A stretch of DNA of 10,973 bases from Kiritimatiellia bacterium (lineage in GTDB: Bacteria > Verrucomicrobiota > Kiritimatiellia > RFP12 > UBA1067): NCBI GenBank assembly GCA_017547265.1, contig JAFYQC010000236.1, positions 1 to 10,973 on the forward strand, written 5' to 3'. A model generated the notes under the pieces. It was not told the origin of the DNA. It saw nothing but the letters and a program-made list of their open reading frames with translations, and did not search any database. The position numbers and the translations under genes are program-made. Below, in pieces: positions 1,650-10,597 of this stretch. Position 1 is the first letter of the stretch, and the number at the start of each line of letters is the position of its first letter.

Positions 1650-2546
1650 CTATGCGATTGCAAGCATTGCCTCGATGGCGCGTCGTGCGCGAACGGCTGT
1701 CTCTTCAGGCACCGTGACGCGCGTTTTCATTTCGCGCAAAGCTTCTGCGAGGTTTTCGAGTGTCGTCTTTTTCATGTTCGGGCAGACGAGCCGGTCGTTT
1801 ACGGGATAGAAAGTCTTTTCGGGGTTTTCCTGCCTTAGACGGTGGAGAATGCCGACTTCAGTGCCGACGACGATTTCCTTCGCGGCAGATTCGCGGGCGA
1901 ACTTGCACATCCCGCCCGTAGAGAGCCGCTCGTCAGCCGCATCGCGCACGTCGCGTGCACATTCGGGGTGGACCATCACTGGGGCGCCTGGGTGCGCGGT
2001 TCTCGCGTCGGCTATCGATTTTGCAGTAAGCGCTGCGTGAGTTGGGCAGTATCCTGGCCAGAGGATGTACTTCCTGCCGAGAAGGCCCATTATGTGCGAG
2101 CCGAGGTGCTGGTCGGGAACGAAGATTATCTCGTCGTCGGGCGCAAAGGTCGCCATTACCCGCTCGGCGTTGCCAGAGGTGACGCAGATGTCGCACTCGG
2201 CCTTGACCTCTGCTGTCGAGTTCACGTAGCAGACGGCCTTTGCGCCGGGGTGCTTTGCCTTGAGCTCTCGAAGTTGCGCGCCCGTTATCATGTCTGCCAT
2301 GGGGCAGCCGGCGGTCGGGTCGGGGATTAGGACGGTCTTTTCTGGGTTCAGTATCGCCGCCGTCTCGGCCATGAAGTAGACGCCGCAGAAAACTATCACA
2401 TCGGCGTCGACCTGCGTCGCCCTGCGCGCGAGCTCGAGCGAGTCGCCGGTGAAGTCTGCGGCATCCTGTACTTCTGCGCGGCAGTAGTTGTGCGCGAGTA
2501 TTACCGCATTGCGGCTTTTCTTTAGGCGTTCTATCTCTTCGTTCAT
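1650..2546 (-). CDS. nadA: Quinolinate synthase A (NadA)
   Basis: Condenses iminoaspartate with dihydroxyacetone phosphate to make quinolinate for de novo NAD synthesis, using an oxygen-sensitive [4Fe-4S] cluster in the cytoplasm. At 298 aa it has the length of the compact NadA form, a threefold repeated fold. Visible signatures are AHNY at 18-21, QDAADFTGDS at 27-36, IPDPTAGCPMAD at 74-85, VPDQHLG at 143-149, VHPEC at 192-196 and CPNMKKTTL at 255-263. The cluster ligands are Cys81, Cys196 and Cys255, all present, with the catalytic His19, Tyr21 and His193. The ATG at 2546 gives the usual short N-terminus before AHNY, so an upstream start is not needed. No Shine-Dalgarno precedes it and the -10 element ends only 8 nt upstream, so the mRNA is probably leaderless. 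No nadB or nadC is in the window. Confidence 0.97.
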   Translation of the reverse strand: MNEEIERLKKSRNAVILAHNYCRAEVQDAADFTGDSLELARRATQVDADVIVFCGVYFMAETAAILNPEKTVLIPDPTAGCPMADMITGAQLRELKAKHPGAKAVCYVNSTAEVKAECDICVTSGNAERVMATFAPDDEIIFVPDQHLGSHIMGLLGRKYILWPGYCPTHAALTAKSIADARTAHPGAPVMVHPECARDVRDAADERLSTGGMCKFARESAAKEIVVGTEVGILHRLRQENPEKTFYPVNDRLVCPNMKKTTLENLAEALREMKTRVTVPEETAVRARRAIEAMLAIA

Positions 2547-2554
2547 TGCCGAAT

Positions 2555-2563
2555 ATTATACCA
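2555..2563 (-). promoter_or_regulatory. nadA: Extended -10 promoter of nadA, giving a leaderless mRNA
   Basis: The minus strand reads TGGTATAAT, then eight bases, then the nadA ATG. With normal spacing from the -10 box, transcription starts 0-2 nt before the AUG, leaving no room for a ribosome binding site. No good -35 hexamer is seen. The spacing is read directly from the sequence; leaderless translation is inferred. Confidence 0.7.
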
Positions 2564-2716
2564 AAATTATGCTCCGCCACTTTGCCCATTGGCCCATGTC
2601 TTTCATGTATTGCAGAATATGACAAGTGAAAATGAAATTGCTTTGCTGGCGTTCCTGTTGATTTTGCATGTGCCAGAAGTTGAGATTGAGAGGTTCAATC
2701 CCAGCGAAAAGCGCAA

Positions 2717-2730
2717 GTGCAGAACTGCAC
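2717..2730. promoter_or_regulatory. Perfect 14-bp palindrome at the -35 position of the kinase operon promoter
   Basis: GTGCAG-AA-CTGCAC is a perfect 6-2-6 dyad. Its right half occupies exactly the -35 hexamer position for a 17-bp spacer to the TATAAT at 2748. No recognisable -35 consensus is there. Position and symmetry fit a dimeric regulator's operator (repressor by occlusion, or activator at -35). It lies upstream of the predicted RNA start, so an RNA hairpin role is unlikely. The binding protein is unknown. Confidence 0.5.
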
Positions 2731-2744
2731 AAAGCCGTTCTTTA

Positions 2745-2753
2745 TGGTATAAT
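2745..2753 (+). promoter_or_regulatory. Extended -10 promoter of the kinase/phosphatase operon
   Basis: TGGTATAAT, with a perfect TATAAT at 2748-2753, is followed by seven bases and the ATG at 2761. The predicted start point is about 2760, so the first gene would be read from a leaderless message. No other promoter-like sequence was recognised before 9038, which suggests this one serves kinase 1 through the response regulator and possibly the histidine kinase. Confidence 0.72.
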
Positions 2754-2760
2754 GCTGTCA

Positions 2761-3768
2761 ATGGACGGCGATTGGCGAGAGACGCTAGTCCCCGGAAGCA
2801 TTTTCGGGAACCTGCGCATTGTGAAGCGGCTTGGCTCGGGCGGCATGGGAGTGGTTTTCCTTGCCGAGAACCCGACGGGGGCCAAGTGCGCCCTAAAGGT
2901 CCTCGCTCCGTCAGACGCTTCCGACGAAGGACGCTTCGAAGAACGCTTCAAGAACGAGGCGCAGTTTGCGCTCAAGACCCGTCACCCGAATTTCGTAGAG
3001 GTGTGGGACGCGGGGCGCGACGCTGCGACTGGGCTTTACTACCATGTCATGGAGTATCTTTCGGGCGGTTCGCTCAGGGAACTCGTGGCCGAGTCCAAGG
3101 ACGGTCTCCCGATCGAGAGGGCTGTTTCGATCGCGCGCGATGTCGCGCATGCGCTCGTTCACATCGAGCGCAACGGAATGGTGCACCGCGACATAAAGCC
3201 CGACAACGTCCTCTTTACGGCCGATGGCGTCGCCAAGCTTGCGGACTTCGGCATATCGCGTTTCGAAACGAGCGACGACGTCCATGCGACGCGCGCGGCC
3301 GCGGTGATCGGGACGCCTGCCTACATGGCCCCCGAGCAGATGATCGACTCCCACGACGTCGACATAAGGGCCGACATCTATTCCTTTGGCGTTATGCTTT
3401 ATGAGCTTCTTGCGGGGCGCAGGCCTAACGCGGGCGAAAACGCGATGAACACCCTCGCAAAGGCGATAGAGGGTTTTTCGTTTGCCGATGTTCGCGAGCT
3501 GCGGCCCGACGTTCCCTCCGCGCTTGCGGAGCTCGTCTCCGACATGACGCTTCCGAACCCCGACGACAGGCCGGGTTCCGCTGCGCTCGTGCTAATGCGA
3601 ATAGTAAAACTTGTCGACACCAGCGAAGACGGTACGACAGAGGCGGCGGCAGCCCAGGCCAAGCTCCCTTGGTATCGCGATCGCGGCGTCTTGTATGCGG
3701 CGACTGCGATGGCTCTTGCGCTTGAAGCGCTTGTCCTTGCGGTTTTCAGAGCAGTGAGGGGAGGGTAG
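2761..3768 (+). CDS. Transmembrane Ser/Thr protein kinase, PknB/Hanks type (kinase 1)
   Basis: Phosphorylates Ser/Thr residues with ATP at the inner face of the membrane; the substrate is unknown. From ATG 2761 the protein has 335 residues. The kinase domain spans about 18-280: glycine loop LGSGGMGVVF at 24-33, ATP-anchoring Lys46, helix-C Glu66, catalytic loop HRDIKPDN at 142-149 (Asp144), DFG at 162-164, activation segment GTPAYMAPE at 184-192. It is an RD kinase, so activation-loop autophosphorylation is expected. After a short linker there is one membrane helix (about 309-328) and only a few residues, so it has no PASTA or other sensor ectodomain. An open frame extends upstream to 2668, but those starts lie upstream of the promoter, and the ATG at 2752 overlaps the -10 box. 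2761 is therefore chosen and the mRNA looks leaderless. It is first in the operon with PP2C and kinase 2. Confidence 0.95.
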   Translation: MDGDWRETLVPGSIFGNLRIVKRLGSGGMGVVFLAENPTGAKCALKVLAPSDASDEGRFEERFKNEAQFALKTRHPNFVEVWDAGRDAATGLYYHVMEYLSGGSLRELVAESKDGLPIERAVSIARDVAHALVHIERNGMVHRDIKPDNVLFTADGVAKLADFGISRFETSDDVHATRAAAVIGTPAYMAPEQMIDSHDVDIRADIYSFGVMLYELLAGRRPNAGENAMNTLAKAIEGFSFADVRELRPDVPSALAELVSDMTLPNPDDRPGSAALVLMRIVKLVDTSEDGTTEAAAAQAKLPWYRDRGVLYAATAMALALEALVLAVFRAVRGG

Positions 3769-3773
3769 CCGCC

Positions 3774-4550
3774 ATGCTGTTCGGACTTATGGGAGGAAGG
3801 CGCAAGTTCAGGGTCGACGTCGCGTACACGAGCGAACGCGGGCTCGTTCGCAAGGAGAACCAGGACCATGTGATAGCCGACCCGAAGGCGTTAGTGTTCT
3901 GTGTCGCGGACGGCATGGGTGGCGGTGATGCGGGTGGCGAGGCGAGCGAAATCATCTGCCGCAATGTCGATTCCGTACTGCATGACTACGCGAGCTTTGC
4001 AGACCGCGTGCGGCTTGTCGACGACGCAATAAGGCGCGCCGACGGCGACATACGCTCGGTCGCCGCGTCCGCAGGGTACAGGCAGATGGGCTCCACCGCA
4101 GCCGTGCTCGTCAGCGACGGCAAGCGTATCGCCGCCGTCGGCAACGTAGGCGACAGCCGAGTCTATCGATTGCGCGCCGGCCGGCTGCAGCAGATCACCA
4201 AGGACCACACGCTTGCCGAGGAACTCACGCAGCATTGTCCGTCGCGTATCACAAAGCCGTTCGCGGACATACGCTCGATTGCTCTCTCCCACGTCCTTAC
4301 GCGCGCTGTCGGCGTCGGACAGGAGCCGCTCAAGGTCGACTGGCACAAGATCGACGTTGTCGACGGCGATGTCCTGCTTCTTTGTTCGGACGGCGTACAT
4401 GGTTCCATTTCCCATTCCGTGCTTTTGGACGCAGTGCAGGCCGGCGGCTCGTCCAAGGAGATTGTCGACCGCATAGCCACTCTGGTCGTCGCGAGCGGCG
4501 CGCGCGACAACTACTCCGCGATCGTCGTTAAGATCGGAGGCTCGAAGTGA
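3774..4550 (+). CDS. PP2C-family Ser/Thr protein phosphatase (PrpC/Stp type)
   Basis: Metal-dependent phosphatase that removes phosphate from phospho-Ser/Thr, presumably opposing the two kinases that flank it. It is 258 residues, the normal size for a single-domain bacterial PP2C. Motifs in order: RKENQD at 26-31, ADGMGGGDAGGEAS at 45-58, GSTAAV at 106-111, GNVGDSRVYRLRAGRLQQITKD starting at 123, VLTRAVG at 174-180, LLCSDGVHG at 202-210 and DNYSAIVV at 245-252. The Mn/Mg ligands are therefore Asp31, Asp46, Gly47, Asp206 and Asp245, all present. There is no membrane segment, so it is cytoplasmic. The ATG at 3774 is 5 nt after the kinase 1 stop, with a GGAGG ribosome site (3760-3764) inside the last codons of kinase 1. 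Its stop overlaps the start of kinase 2, so the three genes are probably translationally coupled. Confidence 0.96.
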   Translation: MLFGLMGGRRKFRVDVAYTSERGLVRKENQDHVIADPKALVFCVADGMGGGDAGGEASEIICRNVDSVLHDYASFADRVRLVDDAIRRADGDIRSVAASAGYRQMGSTAAVLVSDGKRIAAVGNVGDSRVYRLRAGRLQQITKDHTLAEELTQHCPSRITKPFADIRSIALSHVLTRAVGVGQEPLKVDWHKIDVVDGDVLLLCSDGVHGSISHSVLLDAVQAGGSSKEIVDRIATLVVASGARDNYSAIVVKIGGSK

Positions 4551-5683
4551 ATTTTGGCAAGAAGGAGATATTCCGCGTAGGCGACAGGTTTCGCGGCTAC
4601 GTTGTGGAGCGTCTTCTCGGAAACGGCTCGCTCGGTGCCGTCTATCTCGTACGGCACGAGGTGCTTGACACGATCTACGCGCTCAAGGCTTTGTTTCCGG
4701 AGGTTGCGAAGGAGAACGCCGACTACGTGAAGAGGTTTCTGCGCGAGGCGAAGATTGCGACGCGCATCCGCCACCCCAACCTCGTCGCTGTACACGACTG
4801 CGGCTACGACGAGTCTCGAGAGCTGTACTACATCGTGATGGACTATGTGTCTGGCGGGGATCTCAGGCAGGCGCTCGCTTTTGCAGGGCGTTTCGCGCCC
4901 GACCGCGCCGTCGAGGTCGTGTTGCAGGTCGCGTCTGCGCTCGATGCCGCGCAGGAATACCACGTAGTCCATCGCGACATAAAGCCCGAGAACATAATGA
5001 TCCAGCCCGACGGGACGGTGAAGCTTGTCGACCTCGGCATCGCAAAGGCCGACGGACTGCGCGACTCCCTTTGTACCGAGGCGGAAAGCGTGTTTGGCAC
5101 TCCCGCCTACGTCGCGCCAGAGCAGGCGGTCGACGCTTCGGCCGTAGACGTGCGGGCTGACATCTATTCTCTCGGCGTCGTGCTTTTCGAGATGATTGCA
5201 GGGCGCGTTCCCTACGAAGGTCCTAACGCGCCGCAGATACTCGTCCAGACTCTCTCCAACGAGCCGTTTCCGGATATACGCGACATGAATCCCGACGTGA
5301 AGCCAGAGCTCGCGATTATCATCAGGCGCATGTGCGTGAAGGAACGTGATAGGCGCATAGCAACTCCCGCGGCGCTCATCGAGGAATTCAGGAAGATCGG
5401 CTACCGCCCCAAGGACACTCCGACCCCCGGGGTGAAGTACGGTCGCCGCGCAGATTCCGCGCCGACTGTCGTCAGCATGCGCGCGCTTCTGGAGAAGGGC
5501 GCGAACACCGCCGTGGCCGATGGTGATCCACTTGCGTTCGAGACACAGGACGTGGAGATACAGGACTTCGTCGATCGCCTCAAGAGGCGCAAGCGCAAGA
5601 GAAAGCTGGCGTCGACGGCGGCAATTGCCGCGGCTGCGATTCTTGCGCTTCTCGTCTTCGCGTGGCTTGTAGGAGTGATGTAG
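4547..5683 (+). CDS. Transmembrane Ser/Thr protein kinase, PknB/Hanks type (kinase 2)
   Basis: Second Hanks-type kinase, 378 residues. Glycine loop LGNGSLGAVY at 24-33, Lys47, helix-C Glu67, HRDIKPEN at 142-149 (Asp144), metal-binding triad DLG at 162-164 (Leu replaces the usual Phe, tolerated in active kinases), GTPAYVAPE at 184-192. A linker of about 60 residues (285-345) follows the kinase domain, then a very basic stretch (RLKRRKRKRK, 344-353) and one membrane helix (about 355-375) ending three residues before the C-terminus. By the positive-inside rule the kinase is cytoplasmic, with no outside domain. The start is GTG at 4547, overlapping the PP2C stop as GTGA, with GGAGG at 4536-4540 six bases upstream. 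The catalytic motifs sit at the same residue numbers as in kinase 1, pointing to tandem paralogues. Confidence 0.95.
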   Translation: MNFGKKEIFRVGDRFRGYVVERLLGNGSLGAVYLVRHEVLDTIYALKALFPEVAKENADYVKRFLREAKIATRIRHPNLVAVHDCGYDESRELYYIVMDYVSGGDLRQALAFAGRFAPDRAVEVVLQVASALDAAQEYHVVHRDIKPENIMIQPDGTVKLVDLGIAKADGLRDSLCTEAESVFGTPAYVAPEQAVDASAVDVRADIYSLGVVLFEMIAGRVPYEGPNAPQILVQTLSNEPFPDIRDMNPDVKPELAIIIRRMCVKERDRRIATPAALIEEFRKIGYRPKDTPTPGVKYGRRADSAPTVVSMRALLEKGANTAVADGDPLAFETQDVEIQDFVDRLKRRKRKRKLASTAAIAAAAILALLVFAWLVGVM

Positions 5684-7065: not shown

Positions 7066-7707
7066 ATGGGAGAGATCGCAAAGATACGAATCGTAGAGGA
7101 CGACGCGACCATTCGCGCGCTTCTCGAAATGGCGCTTCTCGGCGCGGGGTACAGCGACGTCGTGTCGTCTCCGCGCGGCGACGATGGGCTCAAGATGGTG
7201 GTGCGCGACAAGCCCGATCTCGTGCTGCTCGACGTGATGCTCCCGGGGCTCGACGGCTTTTCAATCGCGAGACGAATCCGCGAGACTCCTGCGCTCGCAG
7301 CGACGCGCATCGTCATGCTGACGGCGCGTACCGCGAGCGAGGACATCGTGCGCGGCCTCGAGGCTGGTGCAGACGACTATGTCACGAAGCCGTTCGACAG
7401 GAAGGTGTTGCTTGCGCGGGTAAAAGCGGTTTTGAGAAGGGGGCTACCTGTTACCGAAGGGATGGACTTTGACGGGCTTAAGATCGACGAGGGCTCTCGC
7501 ATTGCCACGCTTCGTGGGAAAGCGCTTGACTTGACGCCGGGCGAGTTCGATTTGCTCGTCCGCCTAGTCGCGCACAGGGGGCGCGTATTCGCGCGGCCGC
7601 CCGATGAGCGCACTGTTGACGTTCAGGTGGCGAAGCTCAGGCAGAAGCTTGGCAAGTGGAGCGACCATATCGAGACTGTGAGAGGCGTTGGGTATAGGGT
7701 TGGTTAG
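7066..7707 (+). CDS. OmpR/PhoB-family response regulator with a shortened DNA-binding domain
   Basis: Two-component response regulator, presumably phosphorylated by the histidine kinase at 7822-9024. The receiver domain (about 5-123) is complete: acidic Glu11/Asp12/Asp13, phosphoacceptor Asp56 in LLDVMLPGLDG, Thr86 and Lys108. The C-terminal part begins as a normal OmpR winged helix (LTPGEFDLLVRLVAHRGRVFAR, about 156-177) and ends normally with the recognition helix RTVDVQVAKLRQKL (182-195) and the wing TVRGVGYRVG. Between them, where PhoB has about 14 residues forming helix alpha-2 and the transactivation loop, only Pro-Pro remains, so it is roughly 12 residues short. Total 213 aa compared with about 225-230 in the family. 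The frame is intact, so this is an in-frame loss rather than a frameshift. DNA binding may be altered or lost. The ATG is 3 nt after the M20 stop with no well-placed Shine-Dalgarno, so it is probably coupled. Confidence 0.93.
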   Translation: MGEIAKIRIVEDDATIRALLEMALLGAGYSDVVSSPRGDDGLKMVVRDKPDLVLLDVMLPGLDGFSIARRIRETPALAATRIVMLTARTASEDIVRGLEAGADDYVTKPFDRKVLLARVKAVLRRGLPVTEGMDFDGLKIDEGSRIATLRGKALDLTPGEFDLLVRLVAHRGRVFARPPDERTVDVQVAKLRQKLGKWSDHIETVRGVGYRVG

Positions 7708-7709
7708 GA

Positions 7710-7740
7710 GTCGTAACCGCCCCTTGCGGGTGGGCGCGAC
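7710..7740 (+). repeat. GC-rich hairpin after the response regulator
   Basis: CCGCCC (7717-7722) pairs with GGGTGG (7728-7733), including one G-U pair, around a CTTGC loop. An outer GTCG/CGAC stem (7710-7713 with 7737-7740) closes it across a 3x3 internal loop. No U-tract follows, so it is not a standard rho-independent terminator. It could stabilise or process the mRNA or slow transcription between the regulator and its kinase. Confidence 0.55.
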
Positions 7741-7782
7741 CCATGGGGAAGCGACCGAGCCGAGCGGAGCGAGTGCCGAGGG

Positions 7783-7810
7783 GTCAGTAGTCAGGAGTCA
7801 GTAGTTGGAG
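7783..7810 (+). repeat. Imperfect 14-nt tandem repeat
   Basis: Two adjacent 14-nt units both begin GTCAGTAGT (7783-7791 and 7797-7805) and then diverge (CAGGA versus TGGAG). The second unit supplies the GGAG that may serve as a distant ribosome site for the histidine kinase start at 7822. Function unknown. Confidence 0.6.
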
Positions 7811-7821
7811 TTTAGAGCGGA

Positions 7822-9024
7822 ATGAAATTTGGAAGGATATTTTCTTCTCTTGCGCCGTACCTTGCGGCGGCGGCGTTCGTGTTCCTGATGCTTGCGTTCT
7901 ATGTTAGCATCAGAGTCTACAAGCTTTCTGTCTACATGGACGCGAAGCGTGAACTTGAGACGCGCGCCGAGCTCGCGGCGATGACTCTGGCCGAGCCTCT
8001 GCGCACTCAGGATTTCGCGGCCGTGCGCGCATTCGGCGACGTGTGCCGTGAGCGCGGATATGAGCTTTCAGTTCGGGCAAGCGGCGGAGGACGCATTTTC
8101 GACACGAGGCGAAACCACGACGACTCCGCGGATCGTTGGCTGAGTGCGGAAGCGTCGAGCGGTGAATACGTAGTCTGGCTTATCCGCTCTCGCAAGGAAG
8201 TGTTCGCTCCTTTCCGCCGCACGTACCGGCTATTCGTCCTTGCCGCTCTCGCTGGCGCAGCGGGAGTGTTTGTCTTTTTCTTCGCGCTCTATCGCCAGCG
8301 TGTCAGGATTCGCGAACTCGCGCGGACGGAAAAGTTTCGCCGCGAGTTCGTGGCCGACGTCTCGCATGAAATCAAGACTCCGCTCACCGGCATCCTCGGC
8401 GCGGCGGAGATGCTTTCCGAGGGCGGAGCGTCAGAAGCGCAAAAGCCACTTCTTTCGATGATATCAAAGGAGTCGACGCGGCTTAACGCACTTGTCCAGC
8501 AGATTCTCGATCTCGCGCGGCTCGAACGCGAAGGGGAGGCGCTTGACCTTGCCGAAACCGATCTCGTCGACCTTGCGAGGGAGAGTGTCGACTTGATGCG
8601 CCCTCGCGCCGAAGTCGCTGGAATCGCTTTGTCGTTTGTCGCGCCAGAAGCGCCCTGTGTCGCGAAGGTCGACGCGCGGTTAATAGGCGAAGCGATTGGA
8701 AATCTCGTATCCAATGCAATTCGCCATTCTGGTTCGCCAGATGTTGCCGTTTCTGTTTCGCGCACGGCGCACGGTTTCGACATAACGGTTGAAGATCACG
8801 GCGTCGGAATTCCGCCCGAGCACGCGGAACGTGTCTTCGAGCGTTTCCACCGTGTCGACCCTGCACGCGCTGCGGAATCTGGCGGCGCGGGGCTCGGTCT
8901 CGCGATAGCCCGTCGCATAGCGCGTCTCCATGGAGGCGATATTGTCCTTTCTGCTGTCGTTCCATCTGGCGCGCGGTTCGTCCTTTCCCTTAGGGGTTGT
9001 CGTTCCGACCTAGATGGCAGGTGA
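7822..9024 (+). CDS. Membrane sensor histidine kinase, PhoR/EnvZ-like
   Basis: Membrane sensor kinase that autophosphorylates on His and passes phosphate to a response regulator, most likely the one just upstream. It is 400 residues. Membrane helix 1 spans about 10-31, an extracytoplasmic sensor of about 100 residues 32-135, and membrane helix 2 about 136-157. Next come a short juxtamembrane segment, HisKA with SHEIKTPLTG at 181-190 (phospho-His182), and the ATPase domain with N box NLVSNAIRHS at 294-303, G1 DHGVGIP at 325-331, F box VFERFHRVD at 338-346 and G2 GGAGLGLAIAR at 354-364. All kinase boxes look intact. The sensor shows no named PAS or HAMP signature, so the stimulus is unknown. 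ATG 7822 leads straight into the first membrane helix; its ribosome site is weak. Confidence 0.95.
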   Translation: MKFGRIFSSLAPYLAAAAFVFLMLAFYVSIRVYKLSVYMDAKRELETRAELAAMTLAEPLRTQDFAAVRAFGDVCRERGYELSVRASGGGRIFDTRRNHDDSADRWLSAEASSGEYVVWLIRSRKEVFAPFRRTYRLFVLAALAGAAGVFVFFFALYRQRVRIRELARTEKFRREFVADVSHEIKTPLTGILGAAEMLSEGGASEAQKPLLSMISKESTRLNALVQQILDLARLEREGEALDLAETDLVDLARESVDLMRPRAEVAGIALSFVAPEAPCVAKVDARLIGEAIGNLVSNAIRHSGSPDVAVSVSRTAHGFDITVEDHGVGIPPEHAERVFERFHRVDPARAAESGGAGLGLAIARRIARLHGGDIVLSAVVPSGARFVLSLRGCRSDLDGR

Positions 9025-9037
9025 AACGGTTTTTTTG

Positions 9038-9043
9038 TATAAT
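9038..9043 (+). promoter_or_regulatory. -10 box of the metallophosphoesterase promoter
   Basis: A perfect TATAAT follows a seven-T run directly after the histidine kinase stop. The predicted start is near 9050, giving a leader of about 15 nt with AGGAG at 9052-9056, eight bases before ATG 9065. No -35 match is convincing. This separates the phosphoesterase from the signalling operon. Confidence 0.6.
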
Positions 9044-9064
9044 TCAGGAAAAGGAGAGAGTAAA

Positions 9065-10597
9065 ATGGTTCAGATCAATAGGCGTGATTTCGCGAAAGGG
9101 GCGATGGGCCTCTTCGGCTGGGGAATGTTTGCAGGCGGCTTTGGCGGCTGCAGCTTGCTTTCGAAGCGCTCTGGCCCGAATCTCGTGATCGGCACCATAA
9201 GCGACATCCACATTCGTCTCTCCCGCAAGGACGGCGAGAACACCTTTTCTGGCTCTGAGAAGTTTCGCGAGACGCTGGAGTGGTTCCGCGACCAGGGAGT
9301 TGACGGCGTCACGATAAGCGGCGACCTCGCAGACTGCGGCTTTATAGAGGAGCTTGAAGAAGTCGGAAGGGTATGGCGCTCCGTATTCCCGAATGACAAG
9401 GCCCCTGACGGGCGGCATGTCGAGCGGCTTTTCGTCTACGGCAACCACGACTGGGAGGGCTTCAAGTACGGCGGCGGTGCTGGCAAGAAGATTTTTGGCG
9501 ACGACTTCGAATCGCATACGATTCGCAAAGACCTCGCGGCGGCGTGGAAGAAGGCGTTTGGCGAGGAATATTCGCCTGTGTGGCGCAAGGAAGTGAAGGG
9601 ATATACGTTCATCGGCGGCCATTGGATTGCTGACTACTGCAGGGGCAGGGGAGAGATCGGCGTTCCGCAGACGCCTGAATGGTTTAAGGAGAACGGAAAG
9701 ACTATAGATCCCTCGAAGCCGTTCTTTTACCTCCAGCATCCGCCGCCGAAGAACACTTGCCACGGCCCGCATCTCTGGGGTCGAGACGACGGCCGCTTGA
9801 CCGAGACGCTGTCACAATACCCCAACGCGATTGCGATAACGGGCCATTCTCATGCATCACTCACGATCGAGCGTGCAATCTGGCAAGGTACGTTCACCGC
9901 AATCGACGCAGGTTCGCTTAGCTATACAGGCGGCGAATGTGGCGACAGCTATCCGTATTGGCGCGAGAACGACAACAGCGGCGAGAAGTACTCTGTCGAC
10001 AATGCCAAGAAGATCATGCCTCGTCTGTATACAAGGGACGGGCACCAGGGTCTTCTCGTCCGCGTCTACGACGACTGCATAGTGTTCGCGCGTCGCGATT
10101 TCGAGAGCATGAGCAAGCTTGCGGAGGACTGGGTAGTGCCGCTTCCTGCGAAAGACCCGATGCCGTTCACTTTTGAGTCTCGTATTGGCGGAAGCGTTGC
10201 GCCGCAGTTCCCGGCAGGTGCCACGCTTGCTGCCCGCATTACGACCGGAAAGAACCGAGGCGGCGGCAACGTGAAGTCCGAGGAGCGCCGTGTTCTCGAA
10301 GTGACCATCCCCGTCGCGAACCGTCCGGGTGCTGGCAGGGTCGTAGACTACGCCGTCGAAATCTCCGGCAAGGACGGCGGAATAGACAGGAAGCTCGCGT
10401 TCGCCGAGGGCTACCACAGGGCGCCTGAAAGCAAGGTGGCGAACACGCCGCTGGTGTTCCTCGTTGACGCCGACCTTCTCAAGTCGAAGGGCGACCTCTT
10501 GATAAAGGTCGTGCCTCGCAACGGTTTCGGGGTTGCAGGCGAGGCGCTTGGCTGTCGACTGCCCGCCATTGACGAGAAGCCCAAAAATGAGGTATAA
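9065..10597 (+). CDS. Exported metallophosphoesterase, probable Tat lipoprotein
   Basis: Calcineurin-like phosphoesterase; substrate unknown. It has 510 residues from ATG 9065, supported by AGGAG eight bases upstream (a frame-open ATG at 9014 overlaps the histidine kinase gene and lies before the promoter). The N-terminus NRRDFAKGAMGLFGWGMF resembles a twin-arginine signal, and FGGC at 26-29 resembles a lipobox, so export via Tat and lipid attachment at Cys29 is plausible. Di-metal ligands are all present: SDIH (Asp47, His49), GDLAD (Asp87), GNHD (Asn127, His128), LQHPP (His225) and GHSH (His261, His263). The catalytic domain ends near 340. About 150 further residues, with an Ile/Val-rich repeating strand pattern near 370-500, look like an added beta domain that I do not recognise. 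The stop codon TAA lies inside the -10 box of secG. Confidence 0.9.
   Translation: MVQINRRDFAKGAMGLFGWGMFAGGFGGCSLLSKRSGPNLVIGTISDIHIRLSRKDGENTFSGSEKFRETLEWFRDQGVDGVTISGDLADCGFIEELEEVGRVWRSVFPNDKAPDGRHVERLFVYGNHDWEGFKYGGGAGKKIFGDDFESHTIRKDLAAAWKKAFGEEYSPVWRKEVKGYTFIGGHWIADYCRGRGEIGVPQTPEWFKENGKTIDPSKPFFYLQHPPPKNTCHGPHLWGRDDGRLTETLSQYPNAIAITGHSHASLTIERAIWQGTFTAIDAGSLSYTGGECGDSYPYWRENDNSGEKYSVDNAKKIMPRLYTRDGHQGLLVRVYDDCIVFARRDFESMSKLAEDWVVPLPAKDPMPFTFESRIGGSVAPQFPAGATLAARITTGKNRGGGNVKSEERRVLEVTIPVANRPGAGRVVDYAVEISGKDGGIDRKLAFAEGYHRAPESKVANTPLVFLVDADLLKSKGDLLIKVVPRNGFGVAGEALGCRLPAIDEKPKNEV

Follow-up and report, generated by a model that had tools for sequence, protein, structure and literature searches.

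Can a response regulator of the OmpR/PhoB family do without alpha-2, which is normally counted as part of the core of the winged helix-turn-helix, one of the commonest DNA-binding folds? The question arises from a gene in a 10,973-nucleotide contig from a Kiritimatiellia bacterium. (We refer to this entire stretch of DNA as the window.) A preliminary description of the window had claimed that the encoded regulator lacks alpha-2 and the transactivation loop but is otherwise conserved, and had suggested that it binds DNA differently, depends on a partner, works without DNA, or reflects a recent lesion or an assembly artefact. The relevant features of the window are:

7066..7707, + strand: short-form OmpR/PhoB-type response regulator, 213 amino acids (open reading frame, Pfam, and junction length in homologues)
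7078..7425, + strand: receiver domain, about residues 5–120 (Pfam match to 7–120; acidic D12, D56 at the phospho-acceptor position, and K108)
7477..7584, + strand: N-terminal part of the DNA-binding domain, residues 138–173, with strands and alpha-1 (158–169) (AlphaFold2)
7585..7611, + strand: junction RVF-AR-PP-DE, residues 174–182, without alpha-2 and the transactivation loop (alignments and AlphaFold2)
7612..7668, + strand: recognition helix, residues 183–201 (AlphaFold2 helix; conservation in 339 short homologues)
7669..7704, + strand: wing hairpin, residues 202–213 (ETVRGVGYR) (AlphaFold2 strands 202–205 and 209–212; conservation)
7822..9024, + strand: sensor histidine kinase (HisKA and HATPase_c), the probable partner (Pfam)

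The regulator lacks alpha-2 and most of the transactivation loop

Both domains of the regulator are recognized by Pfam: Response_reg matches residues 7–120 (E = 2e-27; 96 bits versus a cut-off of 30.2) and Trans_reg_C matches residues 151–211 (E = 2.8e-15; 56.6 bits versus a cut-off of 26.2). The 61 residues of the Trans_reg_C match cover profile positions 1–76. We examined three alignments to PDB chains, among 308 matched sequences (MtrA, 2gwr; BaeR, 4b09; and 3q9s), and 12 of the columns that separate the RVF strand from the recognition helix are gaps in the regulator. As a control, we used the best 80 of 590 confirmed relatives in the genome collection, which are 34–44% identical to the regulator. 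All 80 are longer between the positions of the regulator's residues 166 and 192 (by 12 residues in 79 of them and by 19 in the other). For the nearest long orthologues, the difference is 12 or 13 residues. Because of these extra residues in the aligned long relatives, we read the absent piece as alpha-2 (RILDAV or QIIDAT in the nearest long relatives) along with most of the loop that leads to the recognition helix. At most, the last residues of the loop (D180-E181) remain. So, the central claim of the preliminary description stands, and the region it pointed to, 7567–7640, encodes residues 168–192 and brackets the junction (residues 177–181).

A structure prediction had also been suggested. 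AlphaFold2's model of the full-length regulator (127 alignment rows; mean pLDDT 87.9; pTM 0.67) has strands at 138–141 and 146–149, helices at 158–169 and 183–201, and a hairpin at 202–212. There is no helix at 170–182 in this model, and the block 171–180 averages a pLDDT of 70. In contrast, the long relative P0325, modelled from a nearly identical alignment (mean pLDDT 89.9; pTM 0.61), has a helix at 177–184, before the recognition helix. This comparison was read from the secondary structure of the models. Using Foldseek, both models match OmpR-family chains over their whole length, with an rmsd that is mostly large, due to domain orientation. For the window model, the best overall overlap is with VbrR (7e1b_B; TM 0.65, rmsd 4.8), and the top match is RpaA bound to DNA and to the C-terminal domain of RNA polymerase alpha. 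The VIA list is mostly receivers and says little about the DNA-binding part.

How should this protein be classified? It has a receiver with the phosphorylation residues, a Trans_reg_C domain with the recognition helix and wing, and, by its position beside long orthologues in a phylogenetic tree (see below), OmpR/PhoB ancestry. We also checked for a complete helix-turn-helix, with alpha-2 before the recognition helix, and this is absent, so we filed the regulator as a non-standard descendant. It is a derived variant of the family, which works like a standard member but is not one. Compared to PhoB and the rest of the OmpR/PhoB family, the domain order, the receiver residues, the recognition helix, the wing, and the adjoining histidine kinase are all as expected, but the family keeps alpha-2 and the transactivation loop and the regulator has neither. 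Some databases label its relatives as PhoB. The PhoB equivalog TIGR02154 is the best-scoring NCBIfam model for the regulator, at 184.7 bits, which is below that model's cut-off of 296.2 bits.

Distribution of the short form

To look for the short junction in other proteins, we ran three protein searches, with the window regulator and two short forms from related genomes as the queries, and took the best 120 of about 8000 candidates from each. This gave 341 distinct proteins; these lists favour close relatives. Among the matches listed, the segment corresponding to residues 175–183 is nine residues long, as in the window, in 339 of the 341. The long form occurs in just the other two, P0253 and P0325. 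NCBI names are attached to two of the 341: Kiritimatiellae bacterium (P0121, which is identical to the regulator at locus L167) and Kiritimatiellia bacterium (P0150).

Across a sample of the phylum (387 genomes around a Verrucomicrobiota genome), the 30 top-ranked loci comprise 2 short and 28 long ones. Both short loci fall in the family that we searched next, which also includes genome G435, whose regulator is 97% identical to the window's; on this basis, the window probably belongs to that family too. That family has 114 genomes, and 79 of them contain a match at E = 1e-30 or better. Alignment with regulators from related genomes was another check that had been proposed for the window: the best-ranked 60 loci from the 79 matching genomes include 24 with a junction of the same length, 35 of the ordinary long form, and one broken gene (L170). 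One of the short loci, L160, is cut at the end of its contig.

The preliminary description had allowed for an assembly artefact or a recent lesion, and a close genome (G456) does carry a broken copy of the regulator gene. However, the same junction recurs on many contigs, in 339/341 of the listed homologues and in 24/60 of the family's loci, and purifying selection acts on the trimmed domain (see below). We exclude an artefact or a recent, strain-specific lesion on these grounds, and consider the chance of such an error in the window to be negligible.

In G456's locus (L170), an internal frame-shifting deletion has taken part of the DNA-binding domain, and the sequence of the recognition helix carries on in a different frame. 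Either a lesion or an assembly fault could account for this.

The trimmed domain is under selection

We computed pairwise dN/dS (by the NG86 method) for 22 short-form pairs, comprising 15 pairs within the window's own group and seven others, and for those long-form pairs that were computable. In the window's group (15 pairs), dN/dS is 0.031–0.178 for the DNA-binding domain (residues 133–213), 0–0.054 for the receiver, and 0–0.070 for residues 174–196, where dN is just 0–0.02. In the other seven short-form pairs, dN/dS for the domain is 0.048–0.085, except for one pair at 0.36, which has a dS of only 0.03 and very few changes. The computable long-form pairs range from 0.032 to 0.136. By these ranges, constraint on the trimmed domain is similar to that in the long relatives and weaker than that on the receiver. 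Probably, then, the gene is not broken and encodes a working variant.

Individual residues are highly conserved as well, as the preliminary description had claimed for the receiver, the recognition helix, and the wing. In the 127-row alignment, D12, D56, and K108 of the receiver are invariant and T86 is conserved in at least 90% of rows. Across the 339 short homologues, R182, V186, T204, R206, G207, G209, and Y210 are invariant; R177, D185, Q187, and R192 are present in 338; and T183 is present in 319 and replaced by serine in 20. At position 190, 186 of the 339 have asparagine and 150 have lysine.

Several of these positions presumably correspond to DNA contacts: from the alignment and the order of residues in PhoB, we take R177, T183, V186, K190, and R206 of the window regulator to be the equivalents of R171 of PmrA and of T194, V197, R201, and R219 of PhoB, respectively. 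According to PMC3973317, R171 of PmrA, the arginine that starts alpha-2, contacts phosphate, while T194, V197, and R201 of PhoB contact bases and R219 is a wing contact.

These data bear on whether the trimmed domain might bind no DNA, and might instead be a protein-interaction module, such as for receiver-mediated signalling. Losing a core helix of the helix-turn-helix would usually be expected to destroy DNA binding, and the regulator's Trans_reg_C score (56.6 bits) is low beside scores of up to 95.7 bits for other matches in the searched genomes. On the other hand, the equivalents of the base and phosphate contacts are nearly invariant, and residues 174–196, with a dN of 0–0.02 in the window's group, have hardly changed. 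We do not favour a function without DNA and consider it quite unlikely.

Origin of the short form

We built a phylogenetic tree with 59 rows (the window and 58 loci), leaving out the junction columns as well as L160 and L170. Almost all of the short rows (23/24) form one set, with support of 99/93. The remaining short row, L163, lies beside this set, but its placement is not firm. The short and long labels require 2 changes on the tree, versus a mean of 18.7 if the labels are shuffled; one change suffices in only 51% of 200 bootstrap trees. The simplest reading of the tree would be one ancestral loss, and a single origin is well supported but not proven.

Eleven long rows share a larger group with the short set. 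None of their genomes has a short form among the fetched loci, which is consistent with one orthologue having replaced the other. The long sister orthologues (L164–L166, L168–L169, L171–L175, and L186) are 60–70% identical to the regulator where listed. Their recognition helix and wing are nearly identical to those of the short form, and most of their loci have a kinase match, but they keep alpha-2 and the loop.

The long sisters and the short forms also differ around the junction. Position 179 is valine or threonine in the long sisters and alanine or proline in the short form. Position 180 is threonine or serine in the long sisters and aspartate in 22/24 short forms, so that the long sisters have Thr/Ser-Glu where the short forms have D180-E181. 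By PhoB's residue order, this pair presumably sits where PhoB has E191-D192. Position 166 is leucine or serine in the long sisters and arginine or lysine in the short form (24/24 short versus 0/35 long). We considered whether the change from leucine to Arg/Lys at 166 proves that the loss newly exposed the core. This idea is weakened by the glutamate at this position in 32/80 of the distant relatives in the genome collection, so the change may show adaptation, but only weakly.

Gene neighborhood

The regulator gene starts three bases after the stop codon of the M20 peptidase gene that precedes it, and the histidine kinase gene comes next, at 7822–9024. Of the 24 short-form loci, 18 have a kinase match. 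In L146, L147, L154, L158, and L159, the fetched stretch has no open reading frame with an H-box motif downstream of the short regulator, and these regulators are possibly orphans at their loci. L144 ends at the edge of its contig.

The regulator's neighbours vary, and include a Clp-type ATPase, Tex, SecY, M20 peptidase, an AIR synthase-related protein, and aldolase, among others. In the loci that we examined, they do not name a common pathway. We saw no phosphate operon among the few neighbours examined, just one gene with a Na/Pi cotransporter domain, in L148. With neighbours that vary like this, membership in a phosphate regulon is not supported.

The spacer between the regulator and the kinase (7708–7821) contains a dispersed repeat, comprising an element of about 70 nt and a GTCAGTAGTCAGGAGTCAGTAGT-like tail. 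By DNA search, this repeat has 20 matches in G435, 23 in G467, 24 in G463, 51 in G458, and 13 in G465, all of which are close genomes. In L141, the corresponding spacer is only about 36 nt.

The region shortly before the peptidase and regulator genes, 2668–5683 of the window, encodes a PP2C phosphatase with a eukaryotic-like Ser/Thr kinase on either side. In L141–L144 and L170, the regulator likewise has PP2C and one or more such kinases nearby. On the other side, adjoining the kinase gene, 9014–10597 encodes a protein of 527 amino acids with a weak match to calcineurin-like phosphoesterases, which at 23 bits falls short of Pfam's cut-off (27).

In L158, the reading frame of the short regulator stays open in the upstream direction, and the resulting 697 amino acids (at about 2040–4133) match Pfam only within the regulator. 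Similarly, an open frame of 828 amino acids is listed for G254 (the L083 match). These could be either unusual N-terminal extensions or long open frames of the kind found in GC-rich DNA.

A proposed mechanism

The explanation that we favour, and consider fairly likely, is that one ancestral loss gave rise to a two-helix winged domain that binds DNA and has lost most of the PhoB-type surface for sigma-70, so that the regulator is probably a repressor or an activator that uses another contact. Specifically, a regulator descended from the OmpR/PhoB family in a lineage of uncultured Kiritimatiellia would have lost 12–13 residues, including alpha-2 and the transactivation loop, once and long ago. 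What remains would be a selected and folded domain, with a sheet, alpha-1, the recognition helix, and the wing, as in the predicted structure. The neighbouring kinase would phosphorylate the regulator, which would lead the receivers to dimerise, and the two DNA-binding domains would then bind DNA via the recognition helix and the wing, as the conserved residues suggest. In the last and weakest step, with most of the alpha-2/loop surface for region 4 of sigma-70 gone, the protein may act as a repressor, as a DNA-architectural factor, or as an activator via another contact.

We infer that DNA binding is retained because the short form keeps the recognition helix, the wing, and the arginine that starts the lost helix. 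It is plausible that the regulator binds DNA differently from usual, as the preliminary description had suggested, and this is close to our best explanation. In PmrA, as described in PMC4660055, the DNA contacts run from alpha-1 through the loop and include the recognition helix and the wing.

A further suggestion was that the regulator depends on a partner. For instance, it might need to pair with a full-length OmpR-type paralogue, as a heterodimer, in order to bind DNA, with the paralogue supplying the lost contacts. We searched 32 genomes (24 with the short form and 8 with the long form) and found 2–11 Trans_reg_C matches in each. All 24 short-form genomes have at least one further match, and four of them (G455, G464, G470, and G471) have long relatives among the fetched loci. 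But each of G254, G330, G437, G445, and G423 has a single further match, perhaps unrelated or not co-located, so these five short-form genomes offer few OmpR-type candidates. We view an obligate partner as unlikely.

It is also conceivable, but in our judgement doubtful, that the short regulator activates transcription much as PhoB does, with D180-E181, the receiver, or a contact with RNA polymerase alpha replacing the lost loop. According to PMC3973317, substitutions in PhoB's loop abolish activation, and an acidic patch, E177/E191, faces region 4 of sigma-70. The aspartate in 22/24 short forms, where the long sisters have Thr/Ser, is at the position of E191. Since the short forms carry D180-E181 and the long sisters have Thr/Ser-Glu, part of the acidic patch may persist, or may even have been gained. 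RpaA, the top Foldseek match, is evidence that members of the family can make other contacts, although not that this regulator does. Against PhoB-like activation, all of alpha-2 and most of the loop are absent, including the position of E177. Because most of this surface is gone, we consider repression, or activation through another contact, to be more likely than PhoB-style activation.

Comparison to other reduced or atypical regulators

Lambda Xis, which is of the excisionase type, has a small winged domain with a reduced helix-turn-helix, and binds by its recognition helix and wing. The regulator may resemble Xis in this respect; unlike the regulator, Xis has no receiver. PMC7145599 describes Xis as a winged-helix protein that uses helix and wing. 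Another atypical member of the OmpR/PhoB family is ChxR from Chlamydia, whose transactivation loop is unlike OmpR's, according to PMC3960148. ChxR is, like the short form, a lineage-specific departure within the family, but ChxR keeps the full winged helix-turn-helix and departs in its receiver and phosphorylation, while the short form departs in the helix-turn-helix. In the titles and abstracts of the literature that we searched, we found no description of an OmpR-type domain without alpha-2, which is weak evidence of absence.

The absence of alpha-2 at a fixed length, with the recognition helix and wing conserved, amounts to a natural experiment on the winged helix-turn-helix. The short form would separate DNA binding from contact with RNA polymerase, which point mutations in PhoB do only partly. 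Its long sister orthologues, from the same family of genomes, provide a ready-made comparison.
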